Shown piece after piece: positions 5,147 through 7,520 of a stretch of 64,000 nucleotides of DNA; positions within the stretch are counted from its first letter, which is position 1; every line of letters begins with the position of its first letter. Where the stretch lies: assembly GCF_003260975.1 (NCBI RefSeq), contig NZ_CP030041.1:5335501-5399500 (forward strand), in the 5' to 3' direction. The position numbers were made by a program, and so were the translations under genes. The notes under the pieces are model-generated. The model had not been told where the DNA came from. It saw only the letters and a list, made by a program, of their open reading frames with translations, and did not search any database. Source of the stretch: Echinicola strongylocentroti (GTDB lineage: Bacteria; Bacteroidota; Bacteroidia; Cytophagales; Cyclobacteriaceae).

Positions 5147-6153
5147 TGGCAAAACTGATCACCGACATATCGGAAGTCCAAAAGTATATCAGGGTAAGCA
5201 ATGCCCTCCAATATCCTACGCTCGAGCCATCGCTCAACGAGGTGGAAATGCAGGAACTGACATTCTATCTGAGTGAAGGTCTATTGGCTGAGATCATTGC
5301 GGAGAAGAATGCCGGTACCTATACACCAAGGATAGAAAAAATTGCGGAGTACGTGATTGCCGCCGAGGCTTCTTTGGCGGTGTATAAAGGTGCTCCGGAG
5401 ATCGAAGTGATGATTTCTGATAATGGCATCAACCGATCAGAGACACAGGATGAAAAGACCGCTTATGGAGGACAGATCAAGCGGTTAAGGAACTTGGCTG
5501 CCAATCGTGCCTACATGGCACTGGATACGGTACTCCGCACCTTGGAGGCTTATGAGCAGGATTATCCCGAATGGCAAAACGCCGGATACTATGCCCTCAA
5601 GGGAGGGATGTTCATCCGGTCGGTAAATGATTTCGAAAAGTCCGGAGAGAACATCAAGGGATCTGCACTGACCTTTCAGGCCTTGGTGCCCATCATGAAG
5701 GACATCCAAGAGCAGCGGATCATGGCCGCCATGCCCATGGCCATGTATGAGGAGATCCTCACCCAACTGGACACGGGTACGCTTACAACTGATAATAAGT
5801 ATTTGCTGGCCAAATACCTGAAACCTGCCATTGCCAAGCTCACCATTCAGGAGGCATTAACAGCACTGGCGGTGGACGTGGATGCACAGGGTATCCAGAT
5901 CAACCAATTGGAACTTGCCGGGGATTCCAGAACCCAAAAGTCGGCATCCATGTCAGCCATTGAAAAGAAAGCTTGGTCGGTTCGTGGCCGTGGGGAGTTC
6001 TACCTCAGCAATATGAAGGAGTACCTGAATGAAAATGCGAGTGACAGCAAGTATCCTTTGTGGTTTAACTCAGGTTGGTACTCCGAAACCCTCAAGGCAC
6101 AAATTGAAAGAGACTCACTACTACCATCTGAAAGAAAAATCTATAGGGGATGA
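5146..6153 (+). CDS. Phage structural protein, DUF6712-like
   Basis: A 335-residue protein starting MAKLITDISEVQKYI, directly coupled to the portal gene. The N-terminal 130 residues are helical and resemble, from memory, the DUF6712 family that occurs next to portals in Bacteroidota prophages. Its place after the portal suggests a head or head-tail completion role, and since no other candidate capsid gene is visible it may be part of the head. No catalytic motif is evident. The end overlaps the holin start by four bases (ATGA). The family assignment is from recall and should be treated as tentative. Confidence 0.5.
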   Translation: MAKLITDISEVQKYIRVSNALQYPTLEPSLNEVEMQELTFYLSEGLLAEIIAEKNAGTYTPRIEKIAEYVIAAEASLAVYKGAPEIEVMISDNGINRSETQDEKTAYGGQIKRLRNLAANRAYMALDTVLRTLEAYEQDYPEWQNAGYYALKGGMFIRSVNDFEKSGENIKGSALTFQALVPIMKDIQEQRIMAAMPMAMYEEILTQLDTGTLTTDNKYLLAKYLKPAIAKLTIQEALTALAVDVDAQGIQINQLELAGDSRTQKSASMSAIEKKAWSVRGRGEFYLSNMKEYLNENASDSKYPLWFNSGWYSETLKAQIERDSLLPSERKIYRG

Positions 6154-6641
6154 TTTACCTGTTTATCCAGCATATGCAAAGGCATTTTGACAATATCGGA
6201 GAGGCTATACAGCAGCCAAAACCATGGCTGATCATTACTGCCGTGTTCTCCATTATCAACCAGTATATATTTTCGCAATGGAATTTTGCCATTGCCTTCT
6301 TCATCGTGTTTTTGATCGACACTGGAGGTGGTGCCTATACCGCGTGGCGCACCAAAAAATTTAGCATCAAGCTTTTCAGGGATAAGCTGATGGACAAGTC
6401 TGTGGCTTATTTCTGCATCATTATCGGTTATTCGGTCTGTACCAAAATGGTATTGGAAGGCAAGTCCACCAATGTGATCGAATACCTCGATATCCCTTTT
6501 TACTCGCTATTTGTCACGGCCGAATTGTTCAGCATTATCCGCAATTGGTACCGATATAAGAAATGGCCGGTGCTGCTCAAGATCATGAGCCACTTTGAAG
6601 GATTCGACAGCGAAACCGGAAAGGAGAAAGGTAATGAATAG
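6150..6641 (+). CDS. Phage holin family protein
   Basis: A 163-residue membrane protein with several hydrophobic segments (about residues 27-45, 48-62, 84-100 and 115-130) and a charged, soluble C-terminus. The segment FLIDTGGGAYTAWRTKKFS resembles the loop of the TcdE/phage phi-LC3-type holin family common in Bacteroidota phages, in which a D-x-x-x-G-x-x-x-A-W/K motif follows the second helix. Holins make the inner-membrane lesion that triggers lysis. It overlaps the upstream structural gene (ATGA) and the downstream DUF5675 gene, forming the first gene of a tight lysis cassette. Confidence 0.78.
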   Translation: MIYLFIQHMQRHFDNIGEAIQQPKPWLIITAVFSIINQYIFSQWNFAIAFFIVFLIDTGGGAYTAWRTKKFSIKLFRDKLMDKSVAYFCIIIGYSVCTKMVLEGKSTNVIEYLDIPFYSLFVTAELFSIIRNWYRYKKWPVLLKIMSHFEGFDSETGKEKGNE

Positions 6642-7041
6642 CCTGGTATTGATCCGCACCCACTTTGAGGAGAAACAAACCCTTGGACAGCTATTTGTCT
6701 TGAATGATCAAGCCGATGAGCTTTTCTCCTGCTTTACCTTGGAACTTCCTTGGAAGGATAACGAGCAATTCGTTTCCTGCATCCCTGCCGGGAGGTATAA
6801 GGTTGTACCTCGAAACTCTGAAAAGTACGGTGACCATCTACACATCCTTGGAGTTCCTGATCGAAGCTTAATACTGATCCATGAAGCCAACTTTTATTTT
6901 GAGTTACTTGGCTGTATTTGTATCGGTAGAAAGCAGCTTGATATCAATGGGGATAGCCTAAAGGATGTTACTAGCTCCGTGGCCACGAAAAACAAACTGC
7001 TTTCATTCATCACCCAACCAACGGAAATATCTATATCATGA
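6634..7041 (+). CDS. DUF5675 family protein in lysis cassette
   Basis: A 135-residue protein. I chose the ATG at 6634 (MNSLVLIRTHFEE) because AAAGGAGAAAG precedes it; a longer frame opens at 6595. The sequence LELPWKDNEQFVSCIPAGRYKVVPR, taken in parts, and GCICIGRK...DINGDSLKDVT match what I recall of DUF5675 (phage-associated, unknown function). Its position between holin and spanin is where an endolysin usually sits, and no other cell-wall hydrolase gene is seen in the prophage part present here. A role in lysis is therefore an inference from position. It overlaps the neighbours on both sides. Confidence 0.72.
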   Translation: MNSLVLIRTHFEEKQTLGQLFVLNDQADELFSCFTLELPWKDNEQFVSCIPAGRYKVVPRNSEKYGDHLHILGVPDRSLILIHEANFYFELLGCICIGRKQLDINGDSLKDVTSSVATKNKLLSFITQPTEISIS

Positions 7042-7520
7042 AAAAATTATTTCTATTACTCGTATTATTGATATCGCTGTATTCCTGTAAGACACCACAG
7101 GTGACTACGCAGGTCATCACCAAGGATTCCACAATTGTCAAAGAGATCCCCCGCATCATAGAGGTGCCTGGTAGCATGGTGGAAAGCCCATCGATCAATA
7201 TTGATTCCCTTGTCTCCATGATCAAGGCAGGTATCAGTCTGGAATCCATCAACCAAACCCTTATCAAAGAGGATCCCGAGACAAAACTAAAAGTGGGGCT
7301 GCTCATCGATCAGCTTGGTAATCTTACCGCCGTATGTGAACAACAAGAACGACAAATTGAAATTATGGAAAAGGAGGTACAGCGATGGAAATCCCGTTAT
7401 GAGCAAGTGACCGTTGAAAAGAAGCCTTCATTTTGGGAGAATTTGAAGAAAGGGATTAATTCATTCGCTATCATCATCCTCATAATAATCGCTATAGTAT
7501 TCTTTGTATTCAGAAGATGA
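7038..7520 (+). CDS. Predicted unimolecular spanin (lipoprotein with C-terminal membrane anchor)
   Basis: A 160-residue protein with a lipoprotein signal peptide (KKLFLLLVLLISLYSC, lipobox Cys17), a periplasmic middle containing charged, probably coiled-coil helix (about residues 100-135), and a very hydrophobic C-terminal segment (about 142-158) ending in two arginines. One protein with an outer-membrane lipid anchor and an inner-membrane helix is the layout of u-spanins such as phage T1 gp11, which fuse inner and outer membranes in the last step of lysis. It is the third gene of the lysis cassette and overlaps its neighbours by 4 bp on each side. Topology is read from sequence; function is inferred. 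Confidence 0.75.
   Translation: MKKLFLLLVLLISLYSCKTPQVTTQVITKDSTIVKEIPRIIEVPGSMVESPSINIDSLVSMIKAGISLESINQTLIKEDPETKLKVGLLIDQLGNLTAVCEQQERQIEIMEKEVQRWKSRYEQVTVEKKPSFWENLKKGINSFAIIILIIIAIVFFVFRR

Follow-up and report, generated by a model that had tools for sequence, protein, structure and literature searches.

Phage T1 gp11 is a u-spanin, that is, a unimolecular (one-protein) spanin. Among Bacteroidota phages, a unimolecular spanin has already been annotated in Cellulophaga phage Ingeline, for which the available text of the paper lists no endolysin (PMC8776804), and it is stated in the accessible part of another source that 'Bacteroidetes phages exclusively use USP' (PMC12596118). In PhaLP, as far as the available portion of its description goes, the predicted phage lytic proteins form large classes (M15, GH24 and GH19) and YkuD is a small class of 10 entries (PF10908, cd16913 and PF03734) (PMC8310338). 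The protein family DUF5675 (PF18925) is only listed among open reading frames (ORFs) in the published mentions found, and no link of the family to lysis was found in the accessible text of the open-licence literature. Here we describe a three-gene cassette carrying a DUF5675 gene in a prophage of Echinicola strongylocentroti. The stretch analysed, called the window below, is the 64,000 nucleotides at G000:C1:5335501-5399500 (contig NZ_CP030041.1) of the 6.25-Mb single-contig genome. Comparison of sequences and a predicted structure make it highly likely that DUF5675 is a cysteine-dependent endolysin on the YkuD (L,D-transpeptidase) fold, acting within a holin, endolysin and u-spanin cassette. 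This estimate covers the type of enzyme and its fold and not the exact bond that is cut, and one of the alternatives considered below overlaps with it for that reason.

The three-gene cassette

Three overlapping ORFs on the plus strand occupy 6150 bp–7520 bp of the window, as the sequence-only reading had proposed. They encode a holin of the Phage_holin_4_1 type (163 amino acids, 6150 bp–6641 bp), the DUF5675 protein (135 amino acids, 6634 bp–7041 bp, counted from the ATG at 6634) and a lipoprotein with a C-terminal membrane helix, which is the u-spanin candidate (160 amino acids, 7038 bp–7520 bp). The holin and DUF5675 genes overlap by 8 bases and the DUF5675 and spanin genes by 4 bases. The outer neighbours (5146 bp–6153 bp, and the next gene from 7517 bp) each overlap the cassette by a further 4 bases, so that one compact operon is suggested.

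The holin matched PF05105 with 30 bits, against a Pfam cut-off of 22.2, and PHROG 199, annotated 'holin', with an E value of 5e-6. A search of viral contigs with this holin recovered only the same prophage. The DUF5675 protein matched PF18925 with 89.8 bits (cut-off 26.7) and belongs to PHROG 1501, which is listed as of unknown function; no membrane helix was found in it.

The spanin candidate had no family above a cut-off in the family scans. By hydropathy and the lipobox rule, its N-terminus carries a lipoprotein signal with the lipobox segment LISLYSC and the lipobox cysteine Cys17 (codon 7086 bp–7088 bp), and residues 140–158 (7455 bp–7511 bp) form a C-terminal transmembrane helix with a mean hydropathy of 3.09. 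The family of this protein comprises 31 members, itself included. Cys17 was invariant in an alignment of 21 sequences, and the C-terminal segment was present in 14 of 15 homologous loci, the exception being L202, where the gene is hidden by another frame. In the window the gene stands in a lysis module beside the holin gene and the endolysin slot, and such a slot also precedes it in the family loci. The u-spanin topology proposed from the sequence alone was thus borne out. Its C-terminal helix is no artefact of prediction, as it recurs in these 14 loci and in the candidates of 17 of the 78 DUF5675 loci described below. A one-protein spanin is not in itself new.

Replacement of DUF5675 by known endolysins

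The strongest evidence for DUF5675 as an endolysin is the replacement of its gene by known endolysin genes between related holins and spanins. An alignment of spanins from six DUF5675 loci (A5) recruited 42 viral loci, 40 of them with enough upstream sequence for the slot to be read (L161 and L182 had too little). DUF5675 lay directly upstream of the spanin in 32/40, a share that is biased upward as some of the seed loci are among the 32. The slot held a peptidase of the M15_3 type in five loci (L177–L181, near-identical; Pfam was run on two of them) and neither gene in three (L190, and L194 and L195, both with a short and weak spanin match). In L178 the gene before M15_3 encodes two helices and is 84% identical to its L163 counterpart, and the gene after it is a homologous spanin.

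A second alignment (A7), made from the spanin family of the window, recruited 15 loci. The slot was occupied by DUF5675 in two (L203 and this prophage's own locus, L201), by a T4-type lysozyme in two (L196 and L197), by an M15 peptidase in six (L198–L200, L202, L204 and L209) and by a GH19-type gene in five (L205–L208 and L210). A lysozyme, M15 or GH19-type gene was therefore found upstream in 13 of the 15 loci, and only in the two Cyclobacterium loci did it not adjoin the spanin gene. Pfam was run on seven of these 13 slot genes, that of L210 among them, and the other six were called by eye. The GH19 assignments comprised one match just above the cut-off and one below it; L210 gave no match and was 53% identical to L205.

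Two comparisons showed the exchange in detail. Between the window and locus L196 of Cyclobacterium jeungdonense, the holins were 51% identical (over 146 amino acids) and the spanins 53% identical, with the L196 holin relative upstream of a T4-type lysozyme, whereas the slot genes were unrelated. An alignment of L039, which encodes DUF5675, with L198 of Algoriphagus marincola, which encodes an M15 peptidase, was collinear over 4635 bp (80% DNA identity) up to the start codon of DUF5675. The match resumed for 92 bp at the start of the spanin gene and then for 2937 bp (79% identity) from late in that gene. In total, about 7.5 kb aligned at approximately 80% DNA identity, interrupted by the slot gene. 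The claim that DUF5675 occupies the endolysin slot has therefore held, and DUF5675 is very probably a new type of wall-cutting enzyme because known wall-cutting enzymes take its place in related viruses.

Predicted fold and active site of DUF5675

The AlphaFold2 model of the DUF5675 protein had a predicted local distance difference test score (pLDDT) of 97.7, and its best structural matches were of the L,D-transpeptidase (YkuD) fold, the nearest being L,D-carboxypeptidases and L,D-transpeptidases. In the model His83 lies at the end of a strand and Cys94 just before a strand. His83 and Gly93-Cys94 (codons at 6880 bp–6882 bp and 6910 bp–6915 bp), which would provide the catalytic pair, were invariant in all 229 aligned members, of which 22 chromosomal members had been chosen with the His/Gly-Cys motif and for which one of the three viral search patterns contains Gly-Cys. 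They were likewise invariant in the 120 members listed from the protein search, the prophage's own copy included. Glu37, Tyr55, Asn86 and Ser115 were also invariant, Arg77 was kept in 215/229 members, and most phage members have an Asp-rich loop at 103–111. A search of PDB sequences with the protein itself (phmmer) returned nothing. The two rows returned by the DUF5675 profile from the same sequences were chance-like and were rejected.

These additional residues bear on which bond would be cut. Since specificity may differ with them, DUF5675 might be an endolysin of another bond, such as L-Ala-D-Glu, D-Ala-meso-diaminopimelic acid (meso-Dap) or another amide. The YkuD fold includes DpaA, which hydrolyses a different amide, the link between lipoprotein and peptidoglycan, according to the accessible text (PMC10653827), and the slot gene of several relatives is an M15 peptidase. 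The nearest folds are nevertheless L,D-carboxypeptidases and L,D-transpeptidases, and we consider this variant, which overlaps with the main reading, possible but rather unlikely.

Gene order and known hydrolases in phages with DUF5675

The protein search gave 150 relatives with the query, of which 120 were listed. DUF5675 was present in 141 of 50,697 phage records, and 80 of 264 viral contigs were kept. Neighbours were counted in 79 usable viral loci, with L089 left out because an open frame for DUF5675 was not found there. In a hydropathy scan a membrane segment was found in the upstream gene in 53/77 loci, in the downstream gene in 50/78, and 65/79 loci had such a segment on at least one side. 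A gene with a lipobox and a C-terminal helix lay directly downstream of DUF5675 in 17/78 loci, compared to 1/944 of the other genes there. The 78 loci are not independent, and the topology was seen in 10 of 37 clusters formed at 60% identity. The association of DUF5675 with a gene of this topology is more than chance. The order in Cellulophaga phage Ingeline_1 is similar, with small membrane genes, then DUF5675 and then a gene with a lipobox and a C-terminal helix. In phi39:1, an overlapping pair of genes that encode membrane or signal segments comes after DUF5675.

These two phi39:1 genes, gp31 and gp32 (L092:21494-21995), take the place of a one-protein spanin and have their membrane or signal segments at the N-terminus, and no lipobox was found in gp32. 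If they are spanins, they would be an exception to the exclusive use of USP quoted above. Separately, an unannotated DUF5675 gene (L094:1678-2067), with its His and Gly-Cys intact, was observed in a gokushovirus of 4.76 kb (PV067912.1), flanked by the genes for the major capsid and the DNA pilot protein, where a lysis role would be striking.

Recognisable peptidoglycan hydrolases were almost absent from the DUF5675-bearing records. We screened 33 whole records, namely the one that contains this prophage, 26 IMG/VR contigs and six named phages (of Cellulophaga, Vibrio, Microcystis and Salinibacter). Three records with a spanin served as controls, L204 for M15 and L205 and L206 for GH19. No match to PF08291 (M15_3), PF00959 (T4-type lysozyme), PF01510 (Amidase_2) or PF00182 (GH19) was found in any of the 33. 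PF01551 (M23) matched in one, in a 738 amino acid frame of the record containing L056. Within the scope of this five-family screen, DUF5675 was the only candidate hydrolase of its record with this one exception. The same screen detected M15 in the control L204, and lysozyme and amidase in well-known genomes only. At an E value of 0.001 there was no other Pfam peptidoglycan hydrolase among 41/48 genes of phi39:1 or 44/50 of Ingeline_1, whose remaining genes carry other annotations.

The prophage itself, which is likely to be approximately 41.8 kb, agreed with this. It contains 60 ORFs by a non-overlap rule, the left flank included. The scan covered 53 of these, with DUF5675 (from its ATG) and a methylase (its part in the window) entered in a shortened form. 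The other seven were six short ORFs (42–70 amino acids) and one split between two loci. No peptidoglycan hydrolase was found in the 53 ORFs among the best 25 of 49 Pfam families (search at E 0.01; down to E 5e-4), and no family named endolysin occurred among the best 25 of 39 PHROGs (search at E 0.001; down to E 3e-6) in the prophage ORFs. The sequence-only reading had seen no other recognisable endolysin in the part of the prophage present in the window, and within this scope the same was found for the left part, up to the likely attachment site.

Chromosomal DUF5675 genes and their pairing with a muramidase

Of 118 genomes, comprising that of the host and those of relatives, 38 gave a match to DUF5675. 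The second DUF5675 gene of the host is membrane-anchored and adjoins a PF11860 muramidase. This set (L005:9877-12997; G000:C1:4921876-4924996) comprises DUF5675 (266 amino acids), the muramidase (568 amino acids, with N-terminal membrane helices assigned by eye), a lipoprotein-like gene and then a large protein. By coordinates, all 14 PF11860 muramidases in the 118 genomes with frames of at least 570 amino acids adjoin a long DUF5675 gene, and the pair occurs together in 14 genomes, including the host. N-terminal membrane segments were present in the 12 DUF5675 frames that were read of the 14 paired with a muramidase. In a partial protein on a 997-base contig (P0109) the PF11860 and DUF5675 domains are joined. 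Chromosomal sets of this type are possibly a domesticated lysis module or a type-10-like secretion module.

In a wider proposal, which we hold tentatively and at slightly under an even chance, the DUF5675 proteins would form an extensive and so far overlooked group of phage endolysins with the L,D-transpeptidase fold, which hosts employ to edit their cell walls. As L,D-endopeptidases that need no partner, and with water as the acceptor, they would end the infection by cleaving 4-3 cross-links at meso-Dap–D-Ala. The membrane-anchored copies paired with a muramidase on chromosomes of the host and its relatives would be a device for lysis, or for holin-type (type 10-like) secretion, that has been domesticated.

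The pairing could also fit a helper role in lysis, in which DUF5675 would, for instance, modify the wall so as to prepare peptidoglycan for a different hydrolase of the phage or the host and would not itself be the endolysin. The two proteins might be partners, as the long DUF5675 gene beside each of the 14 long muramidases and the joined domains would fit, and, of the structural relatives whose activity is known, the nearest are editors of stem peptides (PMC8938487, accessible text). In the exchanges described above, however, DUF5675 replaces an endolysin and does not accompany one, phi39:1 and Ingeline_1 gave no other hydrolase in the genes scanned, and the available text on Ingeline lists only a spanin (PMC8776804). 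The sequence-only reading had left the choice between a new type of lytic enzyme and a helper. The slot exchanges favour the enzyme, and the helper is unlikely because no main endolysin was found beside DUF5675.

Weighing of the proposed endolysin assignment

Several observations weigh against DUF5675 as an endolysin, or reduce the value of the evidence for it. According to the accessible text, the structural relatives closest to it shorten tetrapeptides and influence cell shape (PMC8938487). They edit the wall and do not lyse it, and such an activity alone may not suffice for full lysis. The Pfam YkuD model (PF03734) gave no match to the DUF5675 protein of the window at E 0.1, and alignment of the DUF5675 profile with 23 YkuD domains of host relatives was not significant (P 0.14), with the His and Gly-Cys aligned. 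The canonical HXX14-17-(S/T)HGCh motif was not found, as there are 10 residues between His and Cys and no Ser/Thr-His ahead of Gly-Cys; DUF5675 is therefore YkuD-like in fold and not a member of PF03734. The 15 loci of the window's spanin family are not all independent, since L199 and L204, and L200 and L209, seem to be the same prophages in two collections. Approximately 315 bases separate the lysozyme and spanin genes in the Cyclobacterium loci L196 and L197, and in L197 this interval contains a two-helix gene of 79 amino acids. In the record screen, GH19 was weak even in the controls L205 and L206, being matched below the cut-off only, many of the 33 records may be fragments, and the absence of PF11860 (0/33) has little weight because that search gave no match anywhere, controls included. 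On chromosomes, 12 of 26 PF11860 matches, all of them shorter, have no adjoining DUF5675, and 8 of 22 DUF5675 frames of at least 230 amino acids have no adjoining PF11860. Among the viral loci, 61/78 lack the u-spanin topology downstream, and in 14/79 neither neighbour has a membrane segment. The DUF5675 gene of Vibrio phage 424E50-1 (L010), a large phage, is away from recognisable lysis genes.

Such a position outside any recognisable lysis module, as in L010, would suit a phage inhibitor or exclusion factor that has entered the lysis module by chance and is unrelated to wall cutting. The invariant His and Cys on a peptidoglycan-active fold, the replacement by hydrolase genes of three kinds and the near-absence of other endolysin matches in the carriers of DUF5675 make this very improbable.

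If DUF5675 is the endolysin, lysis would begin with the opening of the inner membrane by the holin, through which the soluble DUF5675 protein would pass into the periplasm. There, on the YkuD fold, Cys94 as nucleophile and His83 as base may hydrolyse stem-peptide bonds. The exact bond is the least certain step. It would most likely be at the L-centre of meso-Dap, between meso-Dap3 and D-Ala4, which would break 4-3 cross-links where that D-Ala is cross-linked. In the accessible text of two papers, LD-endopeptidase activity is described as possible for YkuD enzymes (PMC12729407) and Bd1075 as acting on cross-linked and free tetrapeptides (PMC8938487), so that by analogy the cutting of cross-links by DUF5675 is plausible. 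The spanin, through its lipoprotein end and its C-terminal helix, would then join the inner and outer membranes.

Should this be correct, a function would be given to a domain family that both Pfam and PHROGs list as unknown and that recurs in the phage records and genomes counted above, and the endolysin so far lacking from published phages, Ingeline among them, would be accounted for. A fold for wall editing would also have been turned into a lysin whose active site is a pair of residues, and such enzymes might be of use against Bacteroidota.

Boundaries of the prophage and neighbouring genes

The right end of the prophage is marked by an integrase gene (18119 bp–19339 bp, minus strand), assigned by eye as the one of the 53 scanned ORFs that matches Phage_integrase (PF00589, E 1e-10), and by a 34-base direct repeat (19397 bp–19430 bp) that is likely to be the right attachment site (attR) and overlaps the 3′-end of tRNA-Arg(tcg) (19417 bp–19491 bp). 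The left copy of the repeat lies outside the window (L004:16629-16662). The repeat is the far end of an interrupted duplication of approximately 1.2 kb that takes in the integrase gene; the exact core of the attachment site is therefore not fixed, and the bounds at the 34-base repeats are likely only. A second, very similar integrase gene (L004:15324-16571) lies just outside the likely left attachment site (attL). Its region shares identical stretches with 18186 bp–19430 bp of the window, which suggests that an element in tandem, or the remnant of one, is present at this tRNA-Arg.

Inside the prophage, a minus-strand segment (L003:4804-8371) encodes helicase-like and acetyltransferase-like genes and a membrane protein (families assigned by eye) and looks like a cargo or defence insert. 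A gene for a 721 amino acid protein with repeats (8894 bp–11059 bp of the window) was assigned the SprB repeats (PF13573, 9e-28) by eye and had weak matches to Hoc-like PHROGs. A gene for an SOS response-associated peptidase (SRAP, PF02586, by eye; 17345 bp–18019 bp) adjoins the integrase gene.

Comparison with known systems

The spanin of the window resembles the known u-spanins, namely T1 gp11 and, in the available texts, that of Ingeline (PMC8776804) and the class USP (PMC12596118), in its N-terminal lipobox and C-terminal transmembrane helix and, as in the Bacteroidota phages, in adjoining the holin and the endolysin slot. It differs in being a sequence family of its own and is otherwise the same kind of protein.

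The canonical endolysins of the slot, which are a T4-type lysozyme (PF00959), M15_3 (PF08291) and a GH19 type (PF00182), lie, like DUF5675, upstream of a homologous spanin and, in the best cases, downstream of a homologous holin. No significant sequence similarity was found between them and DUF5675, and they are glycosidases or zinc peptidases whereas DUF5675 is a predicted cysteine hydrolase.

Compared to Pgp2 and Bd1075, the L,D-carboxypeptidases of the YkuD fold, DUF5675 is a stand-alone domain of 135 amino acids that lacks the NTF2 domain, has a shorter spacing between His and Cys and is located in a lysis cassette. A short spacing is also found in Tlde1a, a type VI secretion system effector with an altered L,D-transpeptidase fold, in which nine residues separate H121 and C131 by its own numbering (H83 and C94 in DUF5675) and a conserved Arg stands six residues before the His (R115 and R77, respectively). 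According to the available text, Tlde1a differs in being an injected effector with disulfides (PMC9638812). A further comparison is with the YkuD class of predicted lytic proteins in PhaLP, which shares the fold class with DUF5675 and whose row, in the accessible portion, does not name PF18925 (PMC8310338). On sequence comparison and the predicted fold, DUF5675 would represent a rare kind of endolysin, in the form of a new family whose sequence has diverged.

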